52,708 nucleotides of DNA from Bacteroidales bacterium (GTDB lineage Bacteria; Bacteroidota; Bacteroidia; Bacteroidales; UBA932), in assembly GCA_017400135.1 (NCBI GenBank), contig JAFPVJ010000016.1:1-52708 (forward strand). Direction: 5' to 3'. This document shows positions 26,984 to 44,111 of this stretch, piece by piece. The translations under genes were made by a program, and so were the position numbers. The notes under the pieces are model-generated. The model saw only the letters and a list, made by a program, of their open reading frames with translations, made no database searches and had not been told where the DNA came from. Numbering within the stretch: position 1 is the first letter of the stretch; every line of letters starts with the position of its first letter.

Positions 26984-27052
26984 CGGGCCGCCGAATTGCT
27001 TTTTAACTGACAATTTGCGATATTTGCCGCACGTTTGCGCAACGATTTGATT

Positions 27053-28645
27053 ATGAAGAAATATTTGCTTCCCCTCCTTTGTCTGGCCGTGGCGGCCGGA
27101 TGTTCCTCCAAGGGTGACCCGGTGCAGGAACAGTTGGATGAGTTTGCTCCCATCCAGATCGGTTCCTCTTTCTTCGAGGGCATTTCCGACAATGGCCGCG
27201 AGGTCCTCAATTACTTCAAGCAGGCCTCCGCGGAAGTGGACAACATCTACTGGGACCAGAGTTTCGGTGACAGGAAAGAACTGGACAAGCTTTCCCGCCT
27301 CCAGCGTGAATGGGCCGAGGTCAACTACGGCCCCTGGAACCGCACCGACGGCCAGGCATTCGCCGAAGGCTGGACGGCCCGCCCGCTCGGCGCCAACTTC
27401 TACCCCGCCGACATGAGCGAGGAGGAGTTCCTCGCCTGCGAGGACCCCGAGAAGGAGAATCCCTACACGCTGCTCCGCCGGGACGCAGAGGGCAATCTCG
27501 TGACCGTCTGGTACCACGACGCCTACAAGGACCGGATCGAAAAGATCAAGTCCTACCTGACTGCAGCGGCCAACTATACGATCAAGCCCAGTGTGCGCGA
27601 GTATCTCCTGGCCAGGATCGAGGCCCTTCAGACCGACGATTACTACAAGAGTAACCTGATCTGGCTCGGGATGCAGGACAGCAAGATGGATCTCATACTC
27701 GGTCCCGCCGAGACGGAAGACGACCGCCTGCGCGGTGTCAAGACTTCATACGAATCATACGTCCTGCTCAAGGACCTGGAGCTCACCGCCACGATCAACA
27801 CCCTCGCGGAACGCATCCCCGCTTTCCAGGCGGAACTCCCCTGCGATGCGCAGTACAAGGCCTTCGAGCCGGGAGCGGGATCCACGATCTATGCGTACGA
27901 CATGGTCTACGCTGCCGGTGCTGCCAACGCCGGCGTCAAGAAAATCGCCGTCAACCGTCCGTACGATCTGCGTGTCCAGGCCGAACAGGGCACCCGCACC
28001 GCCGTGCTGAACAACGTCATCCATTCGAAATATCTCAAGATCATCCTGCCCGCAGGACGTCTGCTGCTGACCCGCGACCAGAGCGCCAACCTGAGCGGAA
28101 AGGCCTTCTTCTGGAACACCGTGATGCGCGAGATCGCACACGGCATCGGTGTCAAGGAAACGGTCTCCGGCAAAGGCACCGTCACCGAGGCCCTCGGCGA
28201 TGAGGCGTTGACGGTTGAAAAGGTCAAGGACAACGCCCTCGGCCTTTACCTCAACCTTCAGGCCATCGCCGCCGGGCAGACCGACCCGACCGTGCGCCGC
28301 GAGGATGCCCTGGCGACCTTCGTCGTCTCCACCATCCGCTCCGCCCGCTTCGGCGAAGCCACTGCCCTGGGCCGCGGCAACATCATCCTCTACAACTTCC
28401 TCAAGGAGAAAGAGGCCTTCAGCATCGACCGCAGCGGCCATTACCTGGTGGATTTCGACAAGGCGGAACAAGCCGTCACCGAACTGGCTTCCCGTGTCCT
28501 GACGATCCAGGGCGAAGGCGACAGCGCCGCCGCCCACCAGCTCATCGAGACCTACGGCACCCCGTCCGAGTCTCTGCTGCTGGATTTCGCCGCTATGAAA
28601 CGCGCCCGCATCCCGGTGGACGTCCGCTTCCAGTTTGTCTGGTAG
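27053..28645 (+). CDS. M49-like lipoprotein, zinc site lost (probable pseudo-peptidase)
   Basis: Lipoprotein (LLCLAVAAGC lipobox) of 530 residues related to the dipeptidyl-peptidase III (M49) fold common in Bacteroidetes. The helix that should read HExxH reads MREIAHGIG (R359, E360, H363), and the second motif, usually EExxAD before LGLY, reads VEKVKDNALGLY (E389, K390), so two of three zinc ligands are replaced by basic residues. Each change is one transition from a canonical codon (CGC for CAC, AAG for GAG). The rest of the chain is intact with normal codon use. The ATG at 27053 is chosen for its signal peptide. It follows the transporter by 69 nt and ends with a terminator at 28675. A non-catalytic binding role is inferred. 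Confidence 0.8.
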   Translation: MKKYLLPLLCLAVAAGCSSKGDPVQEQLDEFAPIQIGSSFFEGISDNGREVLNYFKQASAEVDNIYWDQSFGDRKELDKLSRLQREWAEVNYGPWNRTDGQAFAEGWTARPLGANFYPADMSEEEFLACEDPEKENPYTLLRRDAEGNLVTVWYHDAYKDRIEKIKSYLTAAANYTIKPSVREYLLARIEALQTDDYYKSNLIWLGMQDSKMDLILGPAETEDDRLRGVKTSYESYVLLKDLELTATINTLAERIPAFQAELPCDAQYKAFEPGAGSTIYAYDMVYAAGAANAGVKKIAVNRPYDLRVQAEQGTRTAVLNNVIHSKYLKIILPAGRLLLTRDQSANLSGKAFFWNTVMREIAHGIGVKETVSGKGTVTEALGDEALTVEKVKDNALGLYLNLQAIAAGQTDPTVRREDALATFVVSTIRSARFGEATALGRGNIILYNFLKEKEAFSIDRSGHYLVDFDKAEQAVTELASRVLTIQGEGDSAAAHQLIETYGTPSESLLLDFAAMKRARIPVDVRFQFVW

Positions 28646-28702: not shown

Positions 28703-28734
28703 GTTTGACAATCATCTTAATTAATCATAACACT

Positions 28735-29664
28735 ATGACTATGAACCAGAAAACCTTCAAGGAAGTCTCGGATCTCTGGAAACGGGACAAGAAACAGTAC
28801 GTGAAAGAATCCAGCTATTCCACCTACGTACTATTGTTGAACAAGCATCTCCTGCCTGCCTTCGGCGATTCGACGGAGGTCACGGAGAGCGAAGTGCAGG
28901 TTTTCGCGCTGCGCAAACTGGACGAAGGACTCAGTATCAAGAGCGTCCGCGAATTGGTGCTGATCCTCAAGATGGTGGTCCGTTTCGGGGCAAAGGCCGG
29001 CTGCTGGCCGGTCCCCGACTGGAACATCCGCTATCCCACGGAACAGGCGGCGCCGGACCTCGAGGTGCTCAACCGGCAGGACCAGCGGCGCATCCTGTCC
29101 CACATCAAGGACCATTTCACCTGTCGGAACCTCGGCATCTACATCTGCCTGGCGGCCGGACTGCGCATCGGAGAAGTCTGCGCCCTGCAGTGGCAGGATC
29201 TCGACATGGTCGACGAAGTCATCCGCGTCCGCAAGACGCTCGGCCGGGTCTACCAGCCCGACGGCACGAACCATCACTCTCGCCTGGTCCTGGGCCAGCC
29301 CAAGACCGTCAATGCCGTCCGGGAAGTCCCGATGTCCCGGGAGATGATCCGGCTGGTCCGCCCCCTCACACGGGTGGTCAATCCGGAATTTTTCCTGCTG
29401 AGCAACGACAAAAAGCCCCTCGAACCCAAGACCTACCGGAGCTATTACAAACGATTCATGTCAGACCTGGGTGTCTCCGACCTGAAATTCCACGGCCTTC
29501 GGCACAGTTTCGCCACGCGTTGCATCGAAAGCGGCTGCGATTACAAGACCGTCAGCGTCCTGCTGGGGCACGCCAACATCGGCACGACCCTCAACCTTTA
29601 CGTCCACCCCAACCTGGACCAGAAGAAGAAGTGTATCGAAAAGGTTTTCCGGCATTTGGGGTAG
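28735..29664 (+). CDS. tyrosine recombinase (orphan, XerC/D-like)
   Basis: Site-specific recombinase of 309 residues. N-terminal SAM-like core-binding domain (residues 1-110), then the catalytic domain with arginine in AAGLRIGEVCALQW, HxxR box HGLRHSFATRC, second histidine in LLGHANIGTTLNLYVHP and the tyrosine in NLYVHP. All catalytic residues are in place. The ATG at 28735 or 28741 is likely. There are no other mobile-element genes around, so it could act as a shufflon or promoter-inversion enzyme, as is common in Bacteroidales, or be a domesticated relic. It is directly followed by the promoter of a large surface-protein operon, but I found no convincing inverted repeats around that promoter. 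Confidence 0.92.
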   Translation: MTMNQKTFKEVSDLWKRDKKQYVKESSYSTYVLLLNKHLLPAFGDSTEVTESEVQVFALRKLDEGLSIKSVRELVLILKMVVRFGAKAGCWPVPDWNIRYPTEQAAPDLEVLNRQDQRRILSHIKDHFTCRNLGIYICLAAGLRIGEVCALQWQDLDMVDEVIRVRKTLGRVYQPDGTNHHSRLVLGQPKTVNAVREVPMSREMIRLVRPLTRVVNPEFFLLSNDKKPLEPKTYRSYYKRFMSDLGVSDLKFHGLRHSFATRCIESGCDYKTVSVLLGHANIGTTLNLYVHPNLDQKKKCIEKVFRHLG

Positions 29665-29672
29665 CTTCCGTA

Positions 29673-29704
29673 TTGGATTATCCTTCGGATTTTTCGTAAA
29701 TTTG
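29673..29704 (+). promoter_or_regulatory. promoter of the surface-lipoprotein operon
   Basis: TTG (29673-29675), 21 nt, TAAATTTG (29697-29704). Start near 29711 leaves about 22 nt before the ATG at 29733. A short ATCC-TTC-GGAT hairpin within the spacer followed by T5 may also weakly end the recombinase transcript. Confidence 0.7.
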
Positions 29705-29732: not shown

Positions 29733-32700
29733 ATGAAAAAACTCTTGCTTCTTGCCCTCTTCGGACTTCTGATCGCGTCCTGCGAGCCCAAAGACCCGAA
29801 AGAGGAAACCTTCGCCGTCACATCGGTTTCCCTGAGCCAGGCGACGGCGGAAATGATTCCCGGGGAAACCGCCCAGCTCATCGCGACGGTCCTGCCCGCC
29901 AACGCCACCGACAAATCCGTCAACTGGGCTTCGTCCAAGCAGTCGGTCGCCACCGTCTCCAATTCCGGACTCGTAACGGCCCTGGCGGAAGGTTCCACGA
30001 CCATCACGGCCTCCTGCGGCGGCAAATCGGCCACCTGCCAGGTGACCGTGAGCAAAGGGATCGTGGCCGTCAGCGGCGTGACGCTGGACCAAACGGATCT
30101 CAACCTGGCCGTCGGAGATGAAGCGCTGCTCAAAGCGACCGTTTCCCCGGATGACGCGACCGACCGGGCCGTCACATGGTCAAGTTCCAATTCCGGCATC
30201 GTCACCGTGGACCAGGGAGGACGCGTCAAAGCCATCGCGGAAGGATCCGCCACCATTACGGCGGCCGCCGGTGGCAAGACGGCCAGTTGCAAGATCAGCG
30301 TCTTGCGCGGGATTGTCCCTGTCGCTTCCGTTGCTCTGGACCGCATCTCCGTTACTTTGGAAGAGAACCAAACCACGACCCTCATAGCCACCGTCAGCCC
30401 GGCCGACGCCACAGACAAGACCGTCACCTGGTCCACCTCCGACGCCTCCGTCGCAACGGTCGGACAAGACGGTCTCGTGACTGCGGTCAAGCAGGGCGCC
30501 ACGACCATTACCGCAAAGGCAGGCAGCCAGACAGCTACCTGCAAGGTAACCGTCAAGAAGAAAGTCATCCCTGTCGCAGCCGTCTCCATCAGCCGGACCA
30601 GTCTGAATATGGTTAAAGGACAGACGGAAACCCTCACGGCCACCGTCAGTCCGGAAGACGCAACGGACAAGACTGTCACCTGGAGCAGCTCCGACGCCAC
30701 CATCGTCAGCGTAGACCAGACCGGAAAAATGACCGCTCTCCAGGGCGGCAGCGCCACCGTCATGGCCAAGGCCGGCGACCAATCGGCCACCTGCTCCGTC
30801 ACCGTGACCGTACCCGTGCAGAGCCTCACCCTCGACCGGGTCACCGTCACGCTGGAGGAGAAGCAGACCACGACGCTCGTCGCCACCGTCAGCCCCTCGG
30901 ATGCGACTGATAAGACCGTCACCTGGACCTCGTCCGACGAGACCGTCGCCAGCGTCGACCAGAACGGCAAGGTGACGGCCCTTCACGTGGGCATGGCCAA
31001 TATAGTGGCCCGGGCCGGGGAGAAAACGGCCGTCTGCAACGTGACCGTCACCCAGGAAGTGATCCCCGTGAAGTCCGTGGGCCTGAACAAGACCCGCCTG
31101 AACCTGACGGTCGGCGCCGTCGAGCAGCTGACTGCCACCGTCAACCCGGACAACGCGACTGACAAGACGATCACGTGGACCAGTTCCGATGCCACCATCG
31201 TGAGTGTCGATCCGAGCGGCAAGGTAAAGGCCCTCAAGGGCGGCACCGCCACGATTACCGCGGCCGCCGGAGACAAGTCGGCCACGGCTTTCGTGGATGT
31301 CCTGGAAGTGACGCCCGGATCCGTGGAGATAGAAGGGAAGGGAGGAAAGTTCGATGTCAGCGTCATTACCACTCGGTCCTATCACATCAGCTCCAAGCCA
31401 GACTGGGTCCAGGAGGTTTCGGTGGAGAAGCAAGTCCACCATTTCGAAGTTCCGACCAACGATTCGGACCAGGAACGGAGCGGCGTCATCTCCATCTGCG
31501 ACGACGAGGGGACCTGCCTCGCCTGTTTGGTCAAGCAGGCTGGTTTCCGACAGTTGGAGGTCGATCTTGACGAATTGTTCTTTGATCTGAACGGAGGCCG
31601 GGAGGAAGTGAAGGTATCTTCCACGATGAACTGGACCGTCTCTTCCAGCGAGAGCTGGTGTTCGGTTTCCCCCTCCAGCGGCTCCCACGACGGAGCATTC
31701 AGTGTCACGGTGGGAGAATACCGGGTACAGGGCACGCGCCAGGCGACCCTGACGGTGCGGGCCGGCGACCTGGTCCAGACCATTCGTGTCGAGCAGGACG
31801 GTATCATTCCGTTCTCTCTCTCTCCCACTTCCGTGGAATTCGGAGACATGGGCGGGACTTTCGAGATAAAGGTCAGGACCTCTTCCGGCTATCACCTGAG
31901 CGGCATGCCGGACTGGATCACCGAAAAGTCCGTCCATAACAAGACCCATGTCTTCCAGGTGGCCGCCAACCCTACAGACCAGGAACGCAGCGGTGTCGTC
32001 TCCTTCTGCGACGATGAAGGAACCTGCCTGTCCTGTCTTGTCCGTCAGGCGCCGCACATCTTTGGTCCCGACGAAGTGGACTGGAGCAGAGAGTTCTATC
32101 ACCGATCTCTGTACCTGCGCTTTACCGCCACTTGGTGTGGCTATTGTCCCCGGATGGCCTCTGCCATCAAAAAGGCCCAGGCTCAAATCCCTGGAAAACT
32201 GGAAGCCGTCAGCCTGCACGGGAGCGGCAGTTCGCTGTATTTCTCTCCCACAGGAACACTGGAGAACCAGTTCGGCATCAGCGGATACCCGGCCGGCATT
32301 TTAGACTGTCGGAGACAAATCCCAAATTACAACGACATCTCCGTGACCGCGTCGGTCACCGTGGATGCCGTTCGGCAGAGGGAATCTTCCCTGCCCACCG
32401 TGACCACGGCAGGTTGGAAATCCACCTTGTCGGGACAGACTCTCTCTCTGGAGACTTATCTCTTCTTCAAGGAAGCCGGCAACTACAAAGTGACCGTACT
32501 GCTCGTGGAAGATGGCATTGTCGCCAAGCAGACGGATTACGACAACGGCGACCAGAACAATTACCGCCACGACGGCGTGGCTCGGGTTGCCGTGAGCAAC
32601 ATCGCAGGAGAGTCGGTCTCCATTTCCTCCGCCCGGACGAGACTTGTCCGGAATTACTCGGTCAACATCCCGTCCTCCTATGTCAAGGATAACCTGAGAA

Positions 32701-32885
32701 TCCTGGTATACATCCAGCGCGCATACGGCAACGGCGTAAACAAGATCGACAGCTCCGACTTCAATGGTTATTTCGTTGACAACTGCGTTTCCGGCAAGGC
32801 CGGATCTACCATGCGCCCTCCCGTGATATCTTCTGCGGGAGGAGGCAATGAGGATGTCACGGATGGAAAACCCATAAACTGGTAA
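29733..32885 (+). CDS. surface lipoprotein: six Big_2, three BACON-like, Omp28/thioredoxin-like domain
   Basis: A 1050-residue lipoprotein (LLIASC, Cys17). Six Ig-like Big_2 repeats of about 83 residues span 27-524, each with a VSPxDATDKTVTWSSSD-type core. Three BACON-like domains follow (525-603, 604-690, 691-775); the first and third are near copies, each with CDDEGTCLxCLV, giving a CxxC in the domain's last strand. The C terminus (776-1050) is an Omp28-type domain with a thioredoxin active-site pattern RFTATWCGYCPRM (C802, C805). The tandem Ig domains suggest a stalk holding the redox domain away from the cell, a reading based on architecture only. First gene of a six-gene run; the next gene is 4 nt away. 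Confidence 0.88.
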   Translation: MKKLLLLALFGLLIASCEPKDPKEETFAVTSVSLSQATAEMIPGETAQLIATVLPANATDKSVNWASSKQSVATVSNSGLVTALAEGSTTITASCGGKSATCQVTVSKGIVAVSGVTLDQTDLNLAVGDEALLKATVSPDDATDRAVTWSSSNSGIVTVDQGGRVKAIAEGSATITAAAGGKTASCKISVLRGIVPVASVALDRISVTLEENQTTTLIATVSPADATDKTVTWSTSDASVATVGQDGLVTAVKQGATTITAKAGSQTATCKVTVKKKVIPVAAVSISRTSLNMVKGQTETLTATVSPEDATDKTVTWSSSDATIVSVDQTGKMTALQGGSATVMAKAGDQSATCSVTVTVPVQSLTLDRVTVTLEEKQTTTLVATVSPSDATDKTVTWTSSDETVASVDQNGKVTALHVGMANIVARAGEKTAVCNVTVTQEVIPVKSVGLNKTRLNLTVGAVEQLTATVNPDNATDKTITWTSSDATIVSVDPSGKVKALKGGTATITAAAGDKSATAFVDVLEVTPGSVEIEGKGGKFDVSVITTRSYHISSKPDWVQEVSVEKQVHHFEVPTNDSDQERSGVISICDDEGTCLACLVKQAGFRQLEVDLDELFFDLNGGREEVKVSSTMNWTVSSSESWCSVSPSSGSHDGAFSVTVGEYRVQGTRQATLTVRAGDLVQTIRVEQDGIIPFSLSPTSVEFGDMGGTFEIKVRTSSGYHLSGMPDWITEKSVHNKTHVFQVAANPTDQERSGVVSFCDDEGTCLSCLVRQAPHIFGPDEVDWSREFYHRSLYLRFTATWCGYCPRMASAIKKAQAQIPGKLEAVSLHGSGSSLYFSPTGTLENQFGISGYPAGILDCRRQIPNYNDISVTASVTVDAVRQRESSLPTVTTAGWKSTLSGQTLSLETYLFFKEAGNYKVTVLLVEDGIVAKQTDYDNGDQNNYRHDGVARVAVSNIAGESVSISSARTRLVRNYSVNIPSSYVKDNLRILVYIQRAYGNGVNKIDSSDFNGYFVDNCVSGKAGSTMRPPVISSAGGGNEDVTDGKPINW

Positions 32886-32889
32886 GGCT

Positions 32890-35800
32890 ATGAAAAAACT
32901 TCACTATCTGACACTTGCGGTCCTGGCCTCTGTTTTCTCCGCCTGCCAGATCGGTCCCGAAGAGCCCGAAGCGCTGTTCGCTTCGCAGGAAACGCTTCTG
33001 AAGGCCGTCATCGAGTCCCAGGCCTCTACTCGGACAGGCCTTGGTCCCGCCGAAGAGGGCGTCTCCGAAGTCCAATGGAAATTCGGGGACCAGATTGGTG
33101 TATTTACCGACACCGATGACCAACTCCACCCGTTCACTTTGACGGGAGGCGTCGGGAGCCGCACTGCGACTTTCTCAGGATACGGTAGCGGAAACAACTA
33201 CCTTGCCGTCTATCCCTACAGCGACGGACTGGTCCGGAACGGGGAGACCGTACAGCTGGATTTGCCTGTTGAACAAGATTATGCGGAAGGAAGCTTCGGC
33301 AACGGAGCCTATCCCATGGTCGCCGTGAGCAACTTCTCGGAACTTCCTTTCGTGGGTCTCGCTTCGATTCTCAAGATTTCCCTGAAAGGACGCCAAAGCG
33401 TCACCCGCATCGTCTTCCGGTCCAACGATCCCTCCGTAAAGGTCAGCGGACCCGCCACCGTTTCCCTGGCTCAACCGGCCGAGCCTGTCCTGACGATGAG
33501 CAGCAAGGGCGCCGACAGTGTCATTCTCAATGTCGGAAGCGCTGCGCTGGATCCGGTTACGGAGAAAGCGTTTTTCCTGACCCTGCCCGCCCAAACTTAC
33601 AAAGGCGGGTTCATCGTCCGCATCTACACGCCGACCGGCTACATGGACAAGCGCTACGACTCGGATTTCAAGATGGAACGCGCTCAAATCCACGCGGCCA
33701 CGCCTGTCATGCTCAAACTGGACTATGGCGCAGAGCCCAGCGAAGTGCTGGACGGCGCCGGAACCCAGAAGGATCCGTTCCAGATTTCTTCCCTGGGCGA
33801 CATTCTGCTGCTGCAGGGCCGCGTCAACACCGAGGGAGCAACCATCCAGAATGCCGATGGCGTAGAGGCGATTGCCAGCAGTGCCAGTTTCGTGCTGACC
33901 TCGGATCTGGACCTGAGTCCGCTATGCGGCCGTTCGAAAGGCAAGAGTTGGACTCCGATTGGAGATATGTCTACCAATGAGAACTGGGTATTCACGGGTA
34001 CGTTCGACGGCGGAGGACACGTCATCACTGGATTGTATATCGAGGAAAGTAAGTCTCAACAAGGTTTTTTCGGCAACCTGCAGGGGACTGTCCGCAACCT
34101 GACCGTCCACGGGACGGTGACCGGAAGGAATTATTGCGGCATACTGGCCGGATATGTCCGGTCCGCTCTCGTCGAAAACTGCACATCCAAAGGTTCCGTG
34201 ACTTCCGACAGCGAAACGGGAGGCTTGCTGGGATATGTAAATTACGCCACCCTGAATTATTGCCGGAACGAAGCCGAAGTCAACGGCGGATGGGCGACTG
34301 GCGGCATCATGGGTTACGCCGATTTCTGTCCCGCCATCTCCCACTGCACCAACGATGGAACAGTCCATGGCCAACAGTCCTGCGGAGGAATCGCGGGATA
34401 CATGAACGGCGCCAAGATCTTTGACTGCACCAATACCGGTTCCGTGACCGGGAGCAGCCTCTATGCCGGGGGTATCGGCGGCTATCTCTGGCAAGGCAGT
34501 AAAATCTACAACTGCAGCAACTACGGACCGGTGAAAGCTAAAGACTACGCAGGAGGTCTCGCCGGTTTCGTGTCTTGCGATGCGACACTCTATCAAGGTC
34601 CGGCCACCGTCGCTAACTGCCTTAGCCTGGGCAAAGTCGAAATCACCAACGGGCAATATGCCGGAAGCCTGGCCGCTTATATCGGCAAGGGGGAGTACGA
34701 AACCCTCTCTCCGAGCGAGTCCGAAACCAGCGCCTGGGTAAAAAACAGTTACTGGCAGCCCAGTCTCTGCGGAGACCTTCCTGCCACCGGCGGCGGGACT
34801 GGCATCGCCGACGGCAATTTCGCCTTGACGGAAGCCCAGATGAAAGGAACACCCTGCGACGTCATACTCTACAACGCAGCAGACGGGACCGGATACAACC
34901 GGCTCATCGACGCACTCAATGCCGGCGCCGTACAGTGGAGCAAGAACACGCCCGTGTTGGGAGGAGATACCCGGGACCATTTCCCGATCTCCGGCTGGGA
35001 ATACAAATCTTCCAATTCCTATCCCGTCCAAACTGACCTGGAGGCGCAGATGCCCGGTCAGGCCAAACCGGTTTTCCTGTTGTCCGAGAAGACCTTCGAA
35101 TGCAACGTCAAAGGCGGAACCTTCCAGGTGGAGGTAACCTCCAGCCAGGGTTATACGGTCGGAAGGTCGGTCGACTGGATCACGGAGGAATCCGTGCAGA
35201 CACCGGACGGACGGCCGCATACCCATATCCATACATTCAAGGTGGCTGTCAACCGTTCCAGTCAGGCAAGAAACACGGTCATCTACTTCACGAATGAAGC
35301 AGGCACGGTCCTGAATTTCAAGGTCAGCCAGAAGGCCCCGTTCCTGACCGTCTCCATGACGGAAGCCATATTCACGGAAGATGGAGGCTCCAAGCGGATT
35401 ATCGTCAGCTCCAGTCTTGACTGGACCGTGACATCTTCGTCCGACTGGTTCCGGGTCGCACCGAAATCCGGAGAGGGAGACGGCGCCCTTTCTGTCATCG
35501 TCGAACCCAACCGGCAAGTCACGGCCCGCAGCTCTTCCTTCACGGTCGCGGCTAGGGACGGCTCTTTCACCCACGTAATCTCGGTCATCCAATCGGGAAA
35601 GACTGCCAGCGACGGAACCGAGATGTGGAAAGAAAAGCCCTTCTATCACAAGTCGCTGGCCATGCGCTTCACGGCGACCTGGTGCAGTTGGTGTCCTTAT
35701 ATGAACGCCGCCATTACCCGGGCCCAGGAACTGTATCCGGACAAAATCTTGCATCTGGCGCTGCACAGCGGAGGAAGCGACCTGGAGTTCGGCCCGGCCT

Positions 35801-36426
35801 CCACGCTGATGAGCCTGTACCGGACCAATGCCTTCCCGACCGGCATCGTGGACGGACGCATCAACGTGCCCAACAGTACCGATACCGACGGAGCCGCCGC
35901 ACAATTCATTGACGTCAGCAAGGAGACGGAAAGCACATACGGTACGGTTTCCGGCATGGCTGTCCGCTCCGTCTGTTCCGGGCAACTGGTGACCATTGAT
36001 GTCGACGCTTACTTCAAGGTGGCCGGAGAGTACAAGATGACCGTTCTCCTGGTCGAAGACGGCATCATCCACGAACAGACGAACGGCGGTACGAATTACC
36101 GGCACGACCACGTGGCCCGGGTGAGCGCCACCGACATCACGGGAGATGCGTTCACGATCGGGAGCGACCTGACCAAGCGTGCCTTCCATTTCTCCGTCGC
36201 AGTTCCCGAGGAGGACAAGATTGAGAACATGCGCGTGGTCGCCTATATCCAAAAGACCTTCGGTTCCGCTCCCAAGATCCAGTCCGATGATTATGGCGAC
36301 TACTATGTCGACAACTGTGTCGACGCTCCTGTCGGCGGCTCGGTCAAACTGGCCTTGGTCGGCGGAGGCGGCGGAGACAGCGGCGGAGGCAATGAGGAAA
36401 TCATTCCCGGTGATGAAATCAAATAA
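32890..36426 (+). CDS. surface lipoprotein: fimbrillin-like, GLUG repeats, BACON, Omp28/thioredoxin-like domain
   Basis: A 1178-residue lipoprotein (SVFSAC, Cys19). The N-terminal 275 residues resemble a fimbrillin/Mfa-like module (STRTGLG, WKFGDQIGVF, YLAVYPYS). Residues about 285-600 hold GLUG-type repeats (GGLLGYV, GGIMGYA, GGIAGYM, GGIGGYL, GGLAGFV), as in adhesins. Two BACON domains follow (about 728-816 and 817-903), and an Omp28 domain with TATWCSWCPYM (C932, C935) closes the chain before a Gly-rich tail (GGGGGDSGGGNEE). Its BACON lacks the cysteines seen in the upstream protein. The stop overlaps the next gene's first possible ATG (36426). Shares N-terminal and C-terminal modules with its neighbours, so the operon grew by duplication and domain shuffling. 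Confidence 0.87.
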   Translation: MKKLHYLTLAVLASVFSACQIGPEEPEALFASQETLLKAVIESQASTRTGLGPAEEGVSEVQWKFGDQIGVFTDTDDQLHPFTLTGGVGSRTATFSGYGSGNNYLAVYPYSDGLVRNGETVQLDLPVEQDYAEGSFGNGAYPMVAVSNFSELPFVGLASILKISLKGRQSVTRIVFRSNDPSVKVSGPATVSLAQPAEPVLTMSSKGADSVILNVGSAALDPVTEKAFFLTLPAQTYKGGFIVRIYTPTGYMDKRYDSDFKMERAQIHAATPVMLKLDYGAEPSEVLDGAGTQKDPFQISSLGDILLLQGRVNTEGATIQNADGVEAIASSASFVLTSDLDLSPLCGRSKGKSWTPIGDMSTNENWVFTGTFDGGGHVITGLYIEESKSQQGFFGNLQGTVRNLTVHGTVTGRNYCGILAGYVRSALVENCTSKGSVTSDSETGGLLGYVNYATLNYCRNEAEVNGGWATGGIMGYADFCPAISHCTNDGTVHGQQSCGGIAGYMNGAKIFDCTNTGSVTGSSLYAGGIGGYLWQGSKIYNCSNYGPVKAKDYAGGLAGFVSCDATLYQGPATVANCLSLGKVEITNGQYAGSLAAYIGKGEYETLSPSESETSAWVKNSYWQPSLCGDLPATGGGTGIADGNFALTEAQMKGTPCDVILYNAADGTGYNRLIDALNAGAVQWSKNTPVLGGDTRDHFPISGWEYKSSNSYPVQTDLEAQMPGQAKPVFLLSEKTFECNVKGGTFQVEVTSSQGYTVGRSVDWITEESVQTPDGRPHTHIHTFKVAVNRSSQARNTVIYFTNEAGTVLNFKVSQKAPFLTVSMTEAIFTEDGGSKRIIVSSSLDWTVTSSSDWFRVAPKSGEGDGALSVIVEPNRQVTARSSSFTVAARDGSFTHVISVIQSGKTASDGTEMWKEKPFYHKSLAMRFTATWCSWCPYMNAAITRAQELYPDKILHLALHSGGSDLEFGPASTLMSLYRTNAFPTGIVDGRINVPNSTDTDGAAAQFIDVSKETESTYGTVSGMAVRSVCSGQLVTIDVDAYFKVAGEYKMTVLLVEDGIIHEQTNGGTNYRHDHVARVSATDITGDAFTIGSDLTKRAFHFSVAVPEEDKIENMRVVAYIQKTFGSAPKIQSDDYGDYYVDNCVDAPVGGSVKLALVGGGGGDSGGGNEEIIPGDEIK

Positions 36427-36440
36427 TGGAGGAACTGATC

Positions 36441-39400
36441 ATGAAAAAACAAGCAACCCTTTCCCTTTTCAGCCTTTTCCTCCTGATGTCCGTCTTTGGC
36501 TGCCAGCAGATCGAACCGCAGGAAGAACCCGTCACCGCGACAAATTTCCTGACCGCCATCGTGGAGCACGACACGGAGACCCGCTCTCAATTGGGGGTTA
36601 CGGAAGACAACAAGTATTTCGCATTCTGGACCGCCAAGGATGAACTGGCCGTCTATGTCGACGATCTCCGCAATCCGGATAAATATATCCTTTCGGAAGG
36701 CGCCGGCACCCAAACCGGTACGTTCGCCGGCACAATATCGGGTCTGCACTACATTGCCCTGTATCCTTATTCGGACAGGGGGCCGGACGGCGTATGCGAC
36801 AAGGTCCTGGACTTGATCCTTCCTTCGGAGCAATCTTACTCCCCCGATTCTTTCGGTGAGGGCGCATTCCCGATGCTGGCCGTGAGCGAAGGCTCCAAAC
36901 TCATTTTCAAGAACCTGTGCGCCGCCCTGAAGATTTCCCTGACCGGAAGCGGAGCCGTCAAGACTATCCGCTTTACGGCCAACGACTCCAAGATGGCGGT
37001 CAGCGGCCCGGCGACGGTCCGGACCGACTTCGCCGAGGCGCCGGAACTCGTGATGAAAGAAGGCGGATCGCCCTCCGTTACCCTGGACTGCGAATATGTG
37101 CAGCTCTCCGAAGACAAGGCCTGTGACTTTTTCCTGGCGATTCCGGCAGGCAATTACCGGGGCGGTTTCACCCTCGAGATAGAAACCTTCTCCGGAACGT
37201 TCACGCGCACCATCACCTCCGACGTGACCTTCCTTCGCTCACAGTTCCGCTACATCGCACCGTTCCGCTGCGAAGCCGACGGAACCATCGATCCGGACGA
37301 CATCCCGCACAATCAGATCTGGTACATCACGTCCACCAACCGGTCTTTCAGTTTCTCCGATGATAAATTTGACCGGAAAATCCTGTCCAACATCTACTCG
37401 GGAGGCAAAGGAGTGATCACCTTCGACGGACCCGTGACGAAGATCGGCGACTATGCTTTCTGGGGAAATGTGTTTACCGGGGTTGCCCTGCCCAACTCGA
37501 TCGAGTCCATCGGTGACCAGGTATTCTCCAACACAAGCATCAGTTCATTCCATACACCGGCACGGCTTTCGTCCGTCGGCAACTACATCTTCTCCAATAA
37601 CAGTCGGTTGACTCGCATATACGGTCCCTTGGCCTCGTCCGACGAACGGGCCCTCATCCTGCCGGACGGCACGCTGGTCGCCTATGCGTACGGTACCCTG
37701 GAATCAACGCTGAAGATTCCGGAAAGAACGACAGCCCTCGCACCCTCTGTTTTCGAATCGAAGGATCAACTCCAGGAGGTTATTTTGCCGGAGGGTCTCC
37801 TCTCTGTCAAAGAAAACTGCTTCAGCCAGTGCTCCAACCTTGAGACAGTGACCTTCCCCGAGAGTGTCATCCAGGTTGGAGAAGGCGCCTTCTACAACTG
37901 TACCCGACTCCGGGAACTCAAGGGAAGCAACGATCATATCCCGGACGGACATGCCTTTGTCAATTCGGACGGGGAGATGACGGTCTTTGCCGGAGCCGGA
38001 GTTCAAGATTATGTCCTGCCGGAAACGGTCAAGACGTTCAGCTCGACGACGTTCCGTTACAATCCGTCGCTGCACAGTCTTACCTTCCCGACCCTGTCGT
38101 TCTCAAGGGTTTGGGTGACAAACTATTTCATCGGCTGTGACAACCTGGAGTATTTCTACGGAGAGGGAACCACGGACGACCATCATGCACTGATCATCTG
38201 GGGCAATTATCTGTTCGCCGTCACCAATGTCCTTCCGACACGGTATATCTTCCCCGAAGGATATGGCATAACCCGAACGGGCGGAGACCTGTTTTTCGGA
38301 AACACAACCACGGAACACATTTCCCTGCCGGATGACATGCTTTCCACCGGCAATTATCTGTTCTCTAACATGAAGCGCCTGAAGTCGGTGAGGATGCCGG
38401 CCAGTCTGCTCGTCATGGAAAACGATGCCTTTTACCAGACTACGACCCTGGACACGCTGTACATGCGTTCCTTCACGCCACCCACCTACACGGAATATGT
38501 GCAAGGTTTCGACCATGACGGACTGGTCATCTATGTTCCGGAAGGTTCCGAAGAACTGTACAAATCGGCGGAGACCTGGTCCAAGTATGCCCCATACATC
38601 CAGGGATACCACTACGACGACCTCGAAGATCCCGATTACTACATTTCCTCGGACTATAGTCAGGATGGCGCGGTGACTACGCTCCAAAAAGCCACCGATG
38701 GCCGGGGCATCGACATCGTGCTGCTGGGAGACGGTTTCTCGGACCGCCAGATTGCCGATGGTACCTACCGTTCTGTCATGAACAAGATGGCCGATGCATT
38801 CTTCTCGGAAGAGCCATACAAGACCTGTCGCGGGTTGTTTAACGTCTATGCCGTCACCGTCGTCTCCGCCAGCGAAGGTTATGAGCATCCCGGGCAGAAG
38901 CTCGGAGGCTGGTTCGGTGACGGGACCTCCGTGGGCGGCAGCGACGCACAGTGTGAAAGCTATGCCAAGAGGGTCCTTCCGGACGAGAGGATGGACGATG
39001 CGCTCATCGTAGTGGCAATGAATTCCACAAGATACGGCGGGACCTGCTATATGTACAATCCTTCCGGCGGAGATTATGGCAGCGGTTTGAGTGTCGCATA
39101 CTTCCCGGTCGGCGAGACGGACGAGGGACTGGCCCGACTGGTCCACCACGAGGCTGGCGGTCACGGATTCGCCAAACTGGGCGATGAGTACGCCTACGAA
39201 AACAACGGGACCATTCCGAAGAATGAGATCAGCGCCCGGGAGGTCAATATGCCGTATGGCTGGTGGAAGAACTGTGACTTCACGGACGACCCGAGTTTAG
39301 TGAAATGGTGCCATTTCCTCGCAGATACCCGCTATCAATATGACGGCCTGGGTTGCTTTGAAGGTGGGTTTACCTATTGGAAAGGCGTCTGGCGACCGAC

Positions 39401-39683
39401 ACTGAACAGCATCATGCGCGACAACACCGGCGGCTTCAACGCCCCGTCGCGCGAAGCCATCTGGTACCGCATCCACAAACTGGCTTACGGAAGCGGTTGG
39501 AATTACAATTACGAGGAATTCGTAGCTTACGACACCATCAACCGCAAGACCTCGGCCTCTACCTCTTCGGTCCAGCGTAACAAGGTCGAGCGGACCTATC
39601 CTCCCACCGCCCCGCCGGTGGTCCTCAACCGGCGATGGAACGAACCCGCCCTTGATTCCGCACCACAAAGCATTTCCCGATGA
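36441..39683 (+). CDS. surface lipoprotein: fimbrillin-like, leucine-rich repeats, M64 metallopeptidase
   Basis: A 1080-residue lipoprotein (LLMSVFGC). The ATG at 36441 starts the signal peptide directly; the ATG at 36426, overlapping the previous stop, adds MEELI. The N-terminal 270 residues match the fimbrillin-like module of the upstream gene (TRSQLG, HYIALYPYSD, SFGEGAFPM). The middle holds BspA-type LRR_5 repeats (KIGDYAFWGN, SIGDQVFSN, LQEVILPEGLLSVKENCF). The C-terminal 330 residues are a peptidase family M64 domain (IgA-peptidase type) with HHEAGGHGFAKLGDEY, containing the zinc motif HExxGH plus the DEY extension. It is probably displayed at the surface and could cut host or dietary glycoproteins; the substrate is unknown. 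Its TGA overlaps the next ATG (ATGA). Confidence 0.9.
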   Translation: MKKQATLSLFSLFLLMSVFGCQQIEPQEEPVTATNFLTAIVEHDTETRSQLGVTEDNKYFAFWTAKDELAVYVDDLRNPDKYILSEGAGTQTGTFAGTISGLHYIALYPYSDRGPDGVCDKVLDLILPSEQSYSPDSFGEGAFPMLAVSEGSKLIFKNLCAALKISLTGSGAVKTIRFTANDSKMAVSGPATVRTDFAEAPELVMKEGGSPSVTLDCEYVQLSEDKACDFFLAIPAGNYRGGFTLEIETFSGTFTRTITSDVTFLRSQFRYIAPFRCEADGTIDPDDIPHNQIWYITSTNRSFSFSDDKFDRKILSNIYSGGKGVITFDGPVTKIGDYAFWGNVFTGVALPNSIESIGDQVFSNTSISSFHTPARLSSVGNYIFSNNSRLTRIYGPLASSDERALILPDGTLVAYAYGTLESTLKIPERTTALAPSVFESKDQLQEVILPEGLLSVKENCFSQCSNLETVTFPESVIQVGEGAFYNCTRLRELKGSNDHIPDGHAFVNSDGEMTVFAGAGVQDYVLPETVKTFSSTTFRYNPSLHSLTFPTLSFSRVWVTNYFIGCDNLEYFYGEGTTDDHHALIIWGNYLFAVTNVLPTRYIFPEGYGITRTGGDLFFGNTTTEHISLPDDMLSTGNYLFSNMKRLKSVRMPASLLVMENDAFYQTTTLDTLYMRSFTPPTYTEYVQGFDHDGLVIYVPEGSEELYKSAETWSKYAPYIQGYHYDDLEDPDYYISSDYSQDGAVTTLQKATDGRGIDIVLLGDGFSDRQIADGTYRSVMNKMADAFFSEEPYKTCRGLFNVYAVTVVSASEGYEHPGQKLGGWFGDGTSVGGSDAQCESYAKRVLPDERMDDALIVVAMNSTRYGGTCYMYNPSGGDYGSGLSVAYFPVGETDEGLARLVHHEAGGHGFAKLGDEYAYENNGTIPKNEISAREVNMPYGWWKNCDFTDDPSLVKWCHFLADTRYQYDGLGCFEGGFTYWKGVWRPTLNSIMRDNTGGFNAPSREAIWYRIHKLAYGSGWNYNYEEFVAYDTINRKTSASTSSVQRNKVERTYPPTAPPVVLNRRWNEPALDSAPQSISR

Positions 39684-41089
39684 ACCGCCTGCGCCCCCTT
39701 CTCTTTCTCCTCCTTGCACTGCCACCCCTCCGGGCGGCGGCGCAGGAGTGGGGAAGCGTGTCGGGGGGCCTGGAGTCCAATTCGGTATGGTCCGTAGACG
39801 GAAGTTTCCGGTCCAACAATTACCTGAAACTGGACTATGTCAAGGGGCGTTTTTCGGCCGGCATCCAGGGGGAATACTACCCCGAACCTCTGCTGGGCTA
39901 CGACCTCAACCTCAAGGGCATCGGGCTCCCGGGCAAGTACATCGCCTGGACGGAAAAGAACTGGAGTCTGACGGCGGGCGATTTCTATGACCAGTTCGGC
40001 TCCGGCATCCTCCTCCGCAGCTGGGAGGACCGGGACCTGGGCTGGAACAACTCGATCGGCGGCGGCCGTTTCACCTGGAACAGCGCGAATGAACTGCTGT
40101 CGATGAAAGTCCTGGGCGGATTTACCCGCCGCTACCTGTGCTATTCTTCCGACCGACTGGCCGGCGCCGGACTGACGCTGCGTCCCCTCGAGGGTTTCAG
40201 CCTGGAAGGCAACGCCGTGGTCCGCCACGACGGCGTGACACCCGCACAAGGGTCCTGGTCCGTCCTCTCTTCATACGAGGCCGGGGGCTTCAACGCCCGC
40301 GCCGAATGGGTCGGGAAGCCGGGAGGTAACGCGCAGCTCCTGGAACTGGGCTACGCCGCGGGTCATTTCTCCTCGGCTCTGACGATGCGCCGGCTCGACC
40401 GGATGGCGGACCCGATGGGAATGAACTACCTCCCCTCCCTCTGCCTGGAGCAAACCTACGCCCTGGCCAGTCTCAACCCCTACACGACTTTCGCCGCCGG
40501 CGAACTGGGCGGAGCGGCCGACCTCTTTTACCGCCACGGGACCTGGAAGTTCCACGCCAACGGATCCATGATCTACGCCCTCCCCTCCGCCCTGCAGAAC
40601 CACGACGTCCTGCGCCTGGCCTACCGGGACATCAACCTCGAGGTGGAAAAGCGCTGGAACAAGCGGCTGAAGACGGTCGCCTTCGTCAGCATCCAGGAGA
40701 ATTCACCGACCCACGGAGAGCGGAAAGCCACCAACGCCCAGAACGCTTTCGTCCTGGACGGCGTGTACAAGACCGCGCGCAAACTCTCGCTGCGGATGCA
40801 GCTGCAATATCTCTATTCCCGGGAACTGACGAAAGACTGGATGGCCGCGCTCCTGGAGGTTTCCTCCACCACGGGCTGGAGCATTCACGTTCAGGACCTG
40901 TACAACCACGGTTCCACCGGGGAACACTATTATGACGCCGGCGTCTCCTGGACGAAGGGCGGGCTCAAGCTGGACCTTTCATACGGTCATCAGCGCGCCG
41001 GCCTGGTCTGCTCGGGCGGCGTGTGCCGCTGGCAGCCGGAATACACGGGCGGCATGCTGCGCCTGGTCTATCAATTTGCGACAAGATGA
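39680..41089 (+). CDS. DUF6029-family outer-membrane beta-barrel
   Basis: A 469-residue outer-membrane protein: signal peptide RLRPLLFLLLALPPLRAAAQ followed by alternating amphipathic strands throughout (for example LKLDYVKGRFSAGIQGEYY, FHANGSMIYAL) and an aromatic-ended last strand MLRLVYQFATR. This matches the DUF6029 family, which in Bacteroidales typically lies beside Omp28 and thioredoxin genes. SAGDFYDQFGSG-type wording (TAGDFYDQFGSGILL) near residue 95 is characteristic. No plug or TonB box is seen. Overlaps of 4 nt with both neighbours imply coupled translation. A role in placing or servicing the Omp28 lipoproteins is a hypothesis from context. Confidence 0.85.
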   Translation: MNRLRPLLFLLLALPPLRAAAQEWGSVSGGLESNSVWSVDGSFRSNNYLKLDYVKGRFSAGIQGEYYPEPLLGYDLNLKGIGLPGKYIAWTEKNWSLTAGDFYDQFGSGILLRSWEDRDLGWNNSIGGGRFTWNSANELLSMKVLGGFTRRYLCYSSDRLAGAGLTLRPLEGFSLEGNAVVRHDGVTPAQGSWSVLSSYEAGGFNARAEWVGKPGGNAQLLELGYAAGHFSSALTMRRLDRMADPMGMNYLPSLCLEQTYALASLNPYTTFAAGELGGAADLFYRHGTWKFHANGSMIYALPSALQNHDVLRLAYRDINLEVEKRWNKRLKTVAFVSIQENSPTHGERKATNAQNAFVLDGVYKTARKLSLRMQLQYLYSRELTKDWMAALLEVSSTTGWSIHVQDLYNHGSTGEHYYDAGVSWTKGGLKLDLSYGHQRAGLVCSGGVCRWQPEYTGGMLRLVYQFATR

Positions 41090-41883
41090 AAAAGTATTTT
41101 TGCATACTGGCTCTGACGATGTGCTGGGCCTGCGTGGGACAGGTGGATGACCCGGAAGATCCGGACATCCCGGAAAACGTGGATCCCGGAGGAGCGTCCG
41201 AGGGCACCCGTTTCTTTCACCGCGTTCTGGCGCTGGACTTCACCGGTGCCTGGTGCCAGTATTGCCCAAACATGGCCGTTGCCATCCAGAGGGCCCAGGA
41301 AGAGCGCCCGGGACGCATCGTAGACATTGCCGTCCATTATGGAGATGCGATTTCCCCGCCCGTTTCCGATGTCCTCGTACAGCGGTTCGCCGTCAACGCC
41401 TTCCCGACCGCTGTGCTGGATCTGAAGCCGTCTACCCGATTCTCCCAGCAGGACGCAGCCCGTTTCACGGCCTACGTGGACGAGACGGTTCCTTCCGAAA
41501 CCTGCGGCATCGCATTCGAGAGTTCCGTCCGGGACGGCACCCTGACCCTTACGCTCACCCTCAAGGCTGTCGCCGAGGGATCTTATTCGGCTGCGGCCGC
41601 GCTGGTGGAGGACGGCCTCATCACGAGCCAGACCGGCGCCAGCGACCGCTATGTCAACCGTTCCGTGCTGCGGAAGTTCCTCGGCGAGGGTGGGATGGAT
41701 GGCACAATCATTGGAACGTTGAAAGCGGGGGAAGAGCGCACCCTCTCCCTGACGACCCAGGTTCAGGAGCCGTACGACAAACAACGCATCGTCGCCTACA
41801 TCCTGGTGGACTGCAAGGTCATCAATGTGCGCGATGGTTCCCTCAACGAAAAAAAGGATTATGACTATGAGACGGATTCTTAG
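41086..41883 (+). CDS. Omp28-like lipoprotein with thioredoxin-type CxxC
   Basis: A 265-residue lipoprotein consisting of little more than the Omp28 domain that ends the two large upstream proteins. The ATG at 41086 overlaps the beta-barrel stop (ATGA) and starts a signal peptide ending ALTMCWAC. Residues 50-62 (LDFTGAWCQYCPN) hold the CxxC (C57, C60). NAFPTAVLDL gives the cis-proline loop region of a thioredoxin fold, and VEDGLITSQTG is shared with the paralogues. A further C-terminal beta-rich part follows. It may be the free-standing version of the redox module. The next gene starts inside its last codons. Confidence 0.88.
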   Translation: MKKYFCILALTMCWACVGQVDDPEDPDIPENVDPGGASEGTRFFHRVLALDFTGAWCQYCPNMAVAIQRAQEERPGRIVDIAVHYGDAISPPVSDVLVQRFAVNAFPTAVLDLKPSTRFSQQDAARFTAYVDETVPSETCGIAFESSVRDGTLTLTLTLKAVAEGSYSAAAALVEDGLITSQTGASDRYVNRSVLRKFLGEGGMDGTIIGTLKAGEERTLSLTTQVQEPYDKQRIVAYILVDCKVINVRDGSLNEKKDYDYETDS

Positions 41884-42352
41884 CTTGCTTTGCCTGGCGC
41901 TGTGCGCCGGCTCTCTTGCCTTTGCCCAGAACGGATCGAAGGTCGAACTCCAAACTCTTGACGGAGGAAAGACCACGCCGGCCGAATGGGTGGACGGCCA
42001 AACCCCTTACGTCGTGTCTTTCTGGTTCGTCAGATGCCGGTTCTGTCTCGAGGAAATGGATGCGGTCAGCGAAGTCTTCGAAGAGTGGCAAGAAGAGAAA
42101 CCCTTCCGTTTCTATGCGGTGTGTACGGACGACAGCCGTTCCCTGGCCCGCGCCAAGGCTCTGATCAAGAGCCGCGGCTGGGACGGATTCCGCTTCGTCT
42201 TCGATGTCAACCGGGAACTGACCCGTGCGATGAACGTCACCTCCTGTCCCTACGTCTTTCTCTATGACAAAGACGGGAAACTGGTCTACTCCCACCTGGG
42301 CTATACGCCCGGCGACGAAGAAATCCTTTTCGAAAAAATCAAAGCCCTCTGA
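41861..42352 (+). CDS. periplasmic TlpA-like thioredoxin
   Basis: A 163-residue thiol-disulfide oxidoreductase. ATGs at 41861 and 41867 both fit; each starts inside the Omp28 gene. Signal peptide RRILSLLCLALCAGSLAFAQ, then a thioredoxin fold with VSFWFVRCRFCLEEM (C59, C62; CRFC instead of the usual CPPC/CxPC), and SCPYVFLYD as the cis-proline loop, followed by GKLVYSHLGYTPG. It is probably periplasmic and soluble. As last gene of the run it could reduce or recharge the CxxC sites of the three Omp28-domain lipoproteins. Its stop is directly adjacent to the convergent M6 peptidase stop. Confidence 0.9.
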   Translation: MTMRRILSLLCLALCAGSLAFAQNGSKVELQTLDGGKTTPAEWVDGQTPYVVSFWFVRCRFCLEEMDAVSEVFEEWQEEKPFRFYAVCTDDSRSLARAKALIKSRGWDGFRFVFDVNRELTRAMNVTSCPYVFLYDKDGKLVYSHLGYTPGDEEILFEKIKAL

Positions 42353-44107
42353 TCACAAGACCTCCAGTTCCAGGAGAATCTTCTTGGTGTTGCCGGGACG
42401 GGTCTTGAAACTGGCTTCGAGACTGTGGCTACCGGCCGGCAGAGTGACGGATTCGCCGCTGATAGGTTCGCCGTCCAAGGTCCACTGCACAGCCGAAGCC
42501 GGGGCCTTGTCGCCCGTTGCCGTGACAAGCGAGAGCGGGAAGTTGTCTCCTGCGTGATATTCCCCTTCGCCCGGGTCCGCGATGTAACAATATCCCGTCG
42601 CATCCATCGTCCGGGCATCTTTCAGATACCAGGAGGCACGGCCGTCGGCATAGCTGATTCCGTCCAGGAACCAGTCTGAGATCACATCGTTCCAGTCTGT
42701 CGGGAGGTAGCGCGTCGCTCCGCCCTGCGGGAAAAACAAATCCTTTTGTTCCCCTGTGAACAGTGCCGTGGAACTGGGATCGGCGGCGGGAACGATATAG
42801 CAGCAGGGATGGACGGCGTAGTTGTTGACGGAGTTATCCTCCCAGGTCTCAAGGGCCGTCAAGCCGTCAAAGATGACCCGGGACGAGCGGTCCACGTGAT
42901 AGACCAGCAGGCCTTCCGGAATCGGAGCGTCCCAACGCTCTCCCCCGCGCACCTCGAAGAGGAAGTATTCCCCGGGGGTGGAAGTCGGGAGCTTGCGGGC
43001 CGTATAGGAAGATGCGCCCGGACGGTTGACGGCGGACAGGTTGTATGGCCCGGTCGCCGTGAATTCCGGGATCTCGGGCAGCCAGCCGATTTCCCAGAGC
43101 TCCTCCGCATTGAGATACGGCGGCGTGTTGCTGCCGTCATTGTATCCGCCTCCGCTCATCAGGTCCACGTCGTATGTACAGGCGCTTTCTCCGTTATCCT
43201 CATAGTCTTCGTCGTAGAAGTCCGGCAGGCCGAGGGTGTGGGCGAATTCGTGACAGGTCGGGCCGATCCGGCACAGTTTCTTGCCACTGCTTCCATCGAA
43301 TTCGGACGTGCAGAAATAGTCCTCGATACGGACACCGTCGTAGATCGCACTGTCACGGGCCAGATCGCTGTCAGAAAGGCACCAGGCGTGGGACCAGATG
43401 CACTTTGTGGTGCCTGTCTGGGCTTCATCGTAGCCGGCGTAGTAATAAAGGATGAAGTCGACGATACCGTCGCCGTCGTTGTCATAGCGCGAGAAATCGG
43501 TCTCGCCATCCAGTTTCTTGACGGCATGGACCAGCGCCATCTCCGGACGCAGGTCGTAGCCATATCTGTCATTGGCCCCATAATAGGCCGCCGTTGTATC
43601 CAACTTGACCGGGCCGAGCACTTCGAACGCGGGCGTGAAGACACCCAGGGAATTTTCCTTGTAATAATCCAGGACGGATCCCGTGGCTCCGTTGGCGGAA
43701 TAGCCCTCCTTGTTGAGCAGTGCGTCGAATTCAGCTGCAGTCTTGGTGAATGGCTTGTCCTTGAAGCCGATCAGGATCACCGGGATACGGGGCGAACCGA
43801 CATGGGCTTCCGCGCGGGCGGCCAGGCGACGGCGACGGTTGGCAACATTACGCCTTTGCGCAGCCATCCGGCGGGTCTTTTGAGGAGACACGGTCGCGGA
43901 AATCCTCCAGAAACCGTCTTCTCCCTGCACAAGGACATTACCCCGTCCGTCGGTCACCCAATGTCCGAATTCATCTCCGTGGAGATAGATCTCAATCGTG
44001 CTGCCGTCCGGCTGGGTTTGGACGATTCGTCCCTTGTAGGCAGGGCCGGCAGTAAGAGTCCAAAAAGCGGCAAAGGCCAGAATGAGCGAGAGTATTGTCT
44101 TTTTCAT
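42353..44107 (-). CDS. secreted M6-family metallopeptidase
   Basis: A 584-residue exported zinc peptidase of the immune-inhibitor-A (M6) type. The ATG at 44107 starts KKTILSLILAFAAFWTLTAG; upstream in-frame ATG 44134 would overlap the preceding gene. A propeptide-like region (to about 110) is rich in Arg (NVANRRRRLAARAEAH), a possible processing site. The catalytic core has YDNDGDGIVDFILYYYAGYDE, GPTCHEFAHTLGLPDFYD (HExxH with the downstream GLPDxYD) and a Met-turn-like VDLMSGGG. A C-terminal beta domain (about 500-584) resembles an Ig-like fold. It lies 4 nt after a fimbrillin-like lipoprotein gene. Confidence 0.92.
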   Translation of the reverse strand: MKKTILSLILAFAAFWTLTAGPAYKGRIVQTQPDGSTIEIYLHGDEFGHWVTDGRGNVLVQGEDGFWRISATVSPQKTRRMAAQRRNVANRRRRLAARAEAHVGSPRIPVILIGFKDKPFTKTAAEFDALLNKEGYSANGATGSVLDYYKENSLGVFTPAFEVLGPVKLDTTAAYYGANDRYGYDLRPEMALVHAVKKLDGETDFSRYDNDGDGIVDFILYYYAGYDEAQTGTTKCIWSHAWCLSDSDLARDSAIYDGVRIEDYFCTSEFDGSSGKKLCRIGPTCHEFAHTLGLPDFYDEDYEDNGESACTYDVDLMSGGGYNDGSNTPPYLNAEELWEIGWLPEIPEFTATGPYNLSAVNRPGASSYTARKLPTSTPGEYFLFEVRGGERWDAPIPEGLLVYHVDRSSRVIFDGLTALETWEDNSVNNYAVHPCCYIVPAADPSSTALFTGEQKDLFFPQGGATRYLPTDWNDVISDWFLDGISYADGRASWYLKDARTMDATGYCYIADPGEGEYHAGDNFPLSLVTATGDKAPASAVQWTLDGEPISGESVTLPAGSHSLEASFKTRPGNTKKILLELEVL

Positions 44108-44111
44108 AGCC

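Follow-up and report, generated by a model that had tools for sequence, protein, structure and literature searches.

Thioredoxin-fold proteins acting outside the cell are known from Streptococcus pneumoniae, where the surface lipoproteins Etrx1 and Etrx2 belong to an electron pathway with CcdA and SpMsrAB2; this pathway has no outer membrane to cross and no barrel, and its partner is a methionine sulfoxide reductase (PMC3914529). In Porphyromonas gingivalis, the hemin-binding protein HBP35 is secreted through the Por/type IX secretion system (T9SS), and its reduction of insulin requires both cysteines (PMC2907840; PDB 5y1a). Surface thioredoxins of Muribaculaceae have been linked to HBP35, oxidative stress and iron in a preprint whose accessible text mentions neither Omp28 nor TlpA (PMC13404670). 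Protein 00502 of Paraprevotella clara, annotated as Omp28-related, is a T9SS-dependent surface protein that recruits trypsin and promotes trypsin autolysis; the main text of that paper mentions neither thioredoxin nor disulfides (PMC9477747). Here we analysed a 52,708-nucleotide stretch of a Bacteroidales genome (contig JAFPVJ010000016.1, hereafter the window), in which a six-gene operon (P1 to P6; 29733..42352, + strand) encodes predicted Omp28-type surface thioredoxins, an outer-membrane barrel of the DUF6029 family and a periplasmic TlpA-like thioredoxin. It is an open question how thiol chemistry could supply reducing equivalents from a Gram-negative cell to proteins beyond its outer membrane; the conduits known to cross that membrane use hemes.

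A barrel, a dedicated TlpA-like protein and surface thioredoxins

Our results showed that P4, P5 and P6 are one copy of a Bacteroidota module made of a dedicated TlpA-like protein, DUF6029 and a surface thioredoxin, and the literature searches, with subscription journals mostly outside their coverage, found no published description of it as a system. The computations show three thiol proteins that are conserved, co-occur and are linked; they also give the predicted thioredoxin fold and the side of the predicted barrel that holds a Cx4C pair. With about equal confidence for and against, we propose that the module moves reducing power in the form of thiols through the outer membrane, from DsbD by way of TlpA and DUF6029 to surface thioredoxins. 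In such a pathway the surface lipoproteins would resemble the Etrx proteins, which also have a thioredoxin fold and act outside the cell (PMC3914529).

P4 (39680..41089, +) matched DUF6029 (PF19494) with 374.2 bits against a cut-off of 27, covering profile positions 8-538 of 538. P5 (41086..41883, +) encodes a short lipoprotein (CWAC-VGQVDDPED) with a thioredoxin domain and a beta-sandwich (Omp28) and carries CQYC at residues 57-60 (41254-41265, +). P6 (41867..42352, +) encodes the TlpA-like protein of the Redoxin/AhpC-TSA type, with CRFC at residues 57-60 (42035-42046, +), H-x-GYxPG near the C-terminus and, judged by eye, a plain signal peptide; it passed the Pfam Redoxin cut-off (45.1 bits, cut-off 26.6) and did not reach the curated cut-off of the TlpA/ResA NCBIfam model PRK03147 (30.6 bits, cut-off 170). 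All three Omp28 matches of the assembly fall in the operon (P1, P2 and P5), passing Pfam Omp28 (PF11551; 92.5, 92.0 and 61.1 bits, cut-off 34.9) and failing NCBIfam lipoprot_Omp28 (NF033782; 58.3, 48.4 and 50.4 bits, cut-off 150). By these profiles they are relatives, not members, of the NF033782 subfamily; Brucella Omp28 is unrelated to the Omp28 family considered here. The host assembly (2.31 Mb, 88.6% complete, the window being contig 13) is placed in Bacteroidota by its relatives. Its single DsbD_TM match (79.6 bits, in a 627 aa frame) supplies the CcdA/DsbD donor of an Etrx-type pathway.

What links the barrel to the thioredoxins is its own invariant Cx4C, C444-S-G-G-V-C449 (41009..41026, +), a pair absent from the earlier note on this DNA. 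The motif, C-x-GG-x-C, stands just before the last strand, in the last hairpin of the barrel, and this hairpin lies on the extracellular side in the structure model (pLDDT 94.5, 24 strands). C444 and C449 are invariant when P4 is aligned with 16 relatives, and they are two of the 18 invariant columns in an 80-sequence alignment (the window and 79 of 83 DUF6029 frames). The Cx4C was present in 84/84 DUF6029 copies of 80 named loci, which are the best 80 of at least 572 stretches encoding relatives in a scan of named genomes, and in 72/72 copies of other loci, where some genomes are represented repeatedly. It also occurred in all 40 phylum-sample loci examined (of 56 genomes with a DUF6029 match), the most distant family included, and in eight of nine weak homologues examined from the order, the ninth being truncated by a contig end. 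Across these sets, every DUF6029 copy whose C-terminus was intact has the Cx4C.

Disulfides in tight hairpins can be structural, and the Cx4C might stabilise a barrel whose task lies elsewhere, for example in polysaccharide export, with the thioredoxins as folding helpers. In PMC9603273, the one paper on DUF6029 in the literature searched, HHpred showed a resemblance to DUF6029 for some Wzi-type barrels in the vicinity of polysaccharide export genes, and a possible role in polysaccharide secretion was suggested. However, folding helpers need neither surface-export signals nor replacement by other surface thioredoxins in distant lineages, and barrel chaperones would hardly be expected to come in several Omp28 copies, or as giant adhesin fusions, for each barrel. 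We regard a purely structural disulfide as improbable. LptD is likewise a barrel of the outer membrane with cysteines that matter to the periplasmic Dsb machinery, as those of DUF6029 would in the proposed relay; unlike the role proposed here, its disulfides serve assembly and not a relay to surface thioredoxins. The best structural match of the DUF6029 model was the FimD/PapC usher pore, with usher and OccK inseparable (VIA rows within 1 Z tied), and Foldseek returned many porins and usher entries. FimD/PapC is also a 24-strand barrel, with partners other than those of DUF6029; the identity over the alignment is about 10%, and the shared barrel size shows no function.

On the surface side, the CxxC cysteines are the only invariant columns in an alignment of 74 Omp28 domains, the domain model has a thioredoxin fold with HBP35 (PDB 5y1a) as its closest structure, and HBP35 itself needs both cysteines. 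The CxxC motifs therefore look catalytic, and the view of the earlier note that they are redox-active rather than structural is strengthened. Of the 120 Omp28-type matches in the named loci, Pfam Omp28 recognises 112, and Por_Secre_tail is present in 12 (also 12 with the NCBI tail model); a few of the 120 are other thioredoxin proteins, for example a DsbD in L098.

Distribution of the module and replacement of its surface partner

The TlpA-like, DUF6029 and surface-thioredoxin neighbourhood, which the earlier note gave as known in Bacteroidales, proved to be conserved well beyond that order. The 80 named loci include Bacteroidales, Flavobacteriaceae, Chitinophagaceae and one Ignavibacteria bacterium; Phocaeicola coprocola DSM 17136, with its locus L087, is a carrier in culture. 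Neighbouring frames were recounted in six frames, with TlpA-like and Omp28-type each counted at 100 bits or more; the automatic counts (TlpA adjacent to 71/84 and Omp28 near 74/84 barrel copies) had missed genes under long antisense frames of GC-rich genomes, the window and L084 included. The recount gave a TlpA-like frame in 74/80 loci, an Omp28-type frame in 76/80 and both in 72/80, with TlpA less than 1 kb from the barrel gene in 73 loci and Omp28 less than 3 kb from it in 76. The retrieved stretches without TlpA were L097, L122, L152, L160, L161 and L163, of which L152 and L163 start almost at the barrel gene and L161 has a sole TlpA-type neighbour below 100 bits; those without Omp28 were L122, L123, L131 and L160, of which L122 ends right after the barrel gene. 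Gene order is usually TlpA, DUF6029, Omp28, and in the window it is DUF6029, Omp28, TlpA; in Flavobacteriia, Omp28 is mostly divergent and upstream. Four loci (L086, L100, L104 and L109) hold two DUF6029 copies split by two large lipoprotein-like proteins, with TlpA by the first copy and Omp28 by the second; DUF4988 was found in one of the two large proteins scanned from L086. In an Alistipes metagenome-assembled genome, a DsbD gene (L098:2087-4042) lies about 3.5 kb upstream of a TlpA/DUF6029/Omp28 module.

The same association was seen in whole genomes. Among 295 genomes of the order, 158 had DUF6029 and Omp28, six DUF6029 alone, 16 Omp28 alone and 115 neither (Fisher p ~1e-55, a value that ignores relatedness). 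All six matches in the DUF6029-alone genomes were weak (E 7.5e-22 to 2.2e-7), and weak or partial DUF6029 matches alone were found in 6 of the 158 double-positive genomes. In a phylum sample of 198 genomes, where a strong DUF6029 match means at least 66 bits, 39 had a strong match and 38 of these had Omp28, with three genomes holding Omp28 without strong DUF6029; the barrel lay less than 6 kb from a listed Omp28 match in 34 of the 39. In the one exception (G417), an Omp28-like CPPC protein, recognised with our own profile, adjoins the barrel (L172). A further 17 phylum genomes with weak DUF6029 had no Pfam Omp28 match. Within the family of the window the module is patchy, since the same-genus genome G008 and the family member G224 have no DUF6029, Omp28 or dedicated TlpA and the family member G126 has them.

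A profile built from 27 module TlpAs scored 181-231 bits in 20/20 chosen DUF6029-positive genomes, where the other listed matches reached 83 bits at most, and gave no match over 77 bits in 10/10 chosen DUF6029-negative genomes; the window and probably G283 (L159) belong to the profile, so that their matches are partly by construction. Eighteen of the 20 positives have the match at the barrel locus, and G113 and G213 keep TlpA elsewhere. This distribution indicates that barrel and TlpA form a tight pair and that Omp28 can exist without them.

The module might instead be oxidative, forming or shuffling disulfides in surface proteins and fed from outside. According to earlier work cited in PMC2907840, hbp35 on a plasmid complements a dsbA mutant of E. 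coli. Against this direction stands the presence of DsbD in the host genome. So does the active site of the dedicated TlpA, which is mostly CxPC (CKPC 33, CVPC 15 and CGPC 11 of 70), a form typical of reductive TlpA/ResA proteins. We consider an oxidative module highly doubtful.

In a distant family (f142) and several genomes of the order, the barrel keeps its Cx4C (CTSGIC and similar) and its TlpA, and no Omp28 is recognised. TlpA is kept in 8/9 loci of the order, the ninth (L233) being a 3.2 kb contig, and the position of Omp28 is filled by Redoxin/AhpC-type thioredoxins with a CPHC-like motif. Nine of nine replacement thioredoxins scanned from f142 matched Redoxin/AhpC-TSA and four matched Por_Secre_tail; at several f142 loci, a lipobox-bearing and a T9SS-tailed CPHC-type thioredoxin stand beside the same barrel. 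Judged from these sequences, the constant element is the chemistry and likely place, a thioredoxin at the surface, rather than the protein family.

These replacements bear on the main rival to the relay, in which DUF6029 is an export or maturation platform that threads or inserts surface thioredoxins, and TlpA holds the cysteines of these proteins, or of the barrel itself, in the reduced state for as long as export lasts. The surface partners, however, already carry two other exit signals, a lipobox or a T9SS tail (the 12 of 120 Omp28-type matches above, and both kinds beside one f142 barrel). T9SS cargo should need no second exporter, and an exporter need not carry an invariant Cx4C. We therefore judge the export platform unlikely, although it deserves serious weight.

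One of the replacements is a candidate selenoprotein: a lipobox redoxin near a DUF6029/TlpA pair in G216 (L225:5829-6428, - strand) has an in-frame TGA where relatives have the first catalytic cysteine, giving U-S-S-C after the lipobox. The genome has a SelB match of 368.6 bits (cut-off 242.25), a test for a bacterial selenocysteine insertion sequence gave a hairpin z of -1.07, and an NCBI model named Omp28-related selenoprotein exists. A wider UxxC/CxxU scan gave seven frames, of which only L215, the same gene as L225, was judged thioredoxin-like. Selenium at this catalytic site would fit redox catalysis.

A dependence of the module on T9SS was rejected, with six DUF6029-positive genomes of the order, the window's own included, having no SprA_N match. 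For this one marker tested, no match was found in any of four genomes of the window's family (the window's own, G000, 88.6% complete; G008, G126 and G224).

A proposed thiol relay and the points against it

The relay through the barrel is favoured because both partners of the barrel are thioredoxins, its Cx4C is invariant, and the surface partners can be swapped for thioredoxins with other exit signals. In the proposed sequence, inner-membrane DsbD would reduce the dedicated periplasmic TlpA-like P6, which would in turn reduce the DUF6029 barrel; there the Cx4C would be the shuttle disulfide, its hairpin lying either in the lumen or on the outer side. The barrel would then reduce the CxxC of surface thioredoxins, either Omp28 alone (P5) or the tips of large adhesin-like lipoproteins (P1 and P2), and these may act on extracellular or surface proteins by reducing or isomerising their disulfides. 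The Cx4C resembles the shuttle disulfide of Ero1. The electron flow itself, physical contact among the proteins, the reductive direction, the way in which P6 reaches the Cx4C and the substrates are all parts that we infer, and action on host or dietary proteins stays a proposal of the earlier note.

Several observations weigh against this relay. The geometry is a weak point, with the Cx4C on the outer side in the model and P6 in the periplasm; the hairpin and long loops might fold into the lumen, P6 might dock deep in the wide pore, or a small thiol might act as go-between. P6 carries CRFC and not CxPC. Eight of the 80 named loci were without TlpA or Omp28, and L160, the only Ignavibacteria locus, was without either. 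In the order, 16/295 genomes have Omp28 without a DUF6029 match, and both are missing from 115/295, G008 and G224 of the window's family among them. Of 19 genomes from both samples with Omp28 and without strong DUF6029, the dedicated TlpA was found in two (214 and 127 bits), the rest staying at or below 69 bits, which indicates that some Omp28 proteins do without the barrel-TlpA pair. One of the two, G192, has a stretch that breaks off 156 bases past TlpA, and the barrel gene may be lost to assembly.

On a broad reading of the relay, DUF6029 would be the first protein to conduct thiol reducing power through the outer membrane: electrons from a dedicated TlpA would pass by the Cx4C of its 24-strand barrel to surface thioredoxins that are interchangeable, and Bacteroidota would have a general extracellular disulfide-reducing activity; we put this forward tentatively, at slightly less than an even chance. 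With the module, DUF6029 and the Omp28 family acquire a shared function that can be tested at exactly named cysteines, and activities of Omp28-related proteins at the surface, of which trypsin autolysis on Paraprevotella is one, acquire a possible mechanism.

Other operon genes and the surrounding region

The six same-strand genes described in the earlier note were borne out as read, with thioredoxin-type CxxC motifs in four products. P1 and P2 are separated by 4 nt, P2 and P3 by 14 nt or an overlap of 1 nt depending on the P3 start, and overlaps follow at P3/P4 (4 nt), P4/P5 (4 nt) and P5/P6 (17 nt). By eye, P1, P2, P3 and P5 each have a lipobox with acidic residues after the cysteine and are predicted, not shown, to be surface-exposed. 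P1 (29733..32885, +; LIASC-EPKDPKEE) has six Big_2 and two BACON domains and a C-terminal thioredoxin/Omp28 domain with CGYC at residues 802-805 (32136-32147, +). P2 (32890..36426, +; FSAC-QIGPEE) has GLUG, two BACON and a C-terminal thioredoxin/Omp28 domain with CSWC at residues 932-935 (35683-35694, +). Pfam thus agrees with the earlier note in placing two Omp28 domains at the ends of giant adhesin-like lipoproteins, although the fimbrillin it read in P2 was not recovered, no fimbrillin family being among the Pfam matches at E <= 0.01. Shorter P1-like proteins stand just before TlpA and barrel in near relatives, namely L084 (456 aa, BACON-Omp28 by Pfam) and L085 (544 aa, the best P1 match). 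Since P1 and P2 hold the thioredoxin/Omp28 head at the end of long stalks compared with these relatives, the organism of the window seems to hold the same active site at a greater distance from the cell.

P3 (36441..39683, or from ATG 36426, +; VFGC) is a lipoprotein with BspA-type LRR_5 repeats and a Peptidase_M64 domain (HEAGGH; PF09471, 65 bits, cut-off 26). The earlier note gave M64 a part in cutting opened substrates, and a conserved role of this kind was not upheld: among 160 loci of other genomes (60 of these <5 kb), none matched the P3 domain, though M64 is common in the order (215/295 genomes). M64 was thus rejected as a module part, and the P3 gene is a local accessory.

A promoter-like site (29673..29704, +; TTG at 29673, 21 nt, TAAATTTG at 29697-29704) precedes P1 and resembles the Bacteroidota consensus. 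This site is a candidate for the single promoter claimed earlier; the loose pattern matched seven times on the + strand of the window (some overlapping) and four times on the - strand, which is weak evidence alone. A tyrosine recombinase gene (28705-29664) on the same strand ends 68 nt upstream of the operon. An invertible promoter was rejected, the lone, weak 12-nt inverted repeat having arms 883 nt apart, both within the recombinase frame. Downstream, a convergent gene (42353-44134, -) with a HEFAH motif resembles, by eye, M6-type secreted metallopeptidases and is followed by another lipoprotein-like gene, and upstream of the recombinase lies a lipoprotein-like protein (27035-28645) with a weak M49 peptidase match (21.5 bits).

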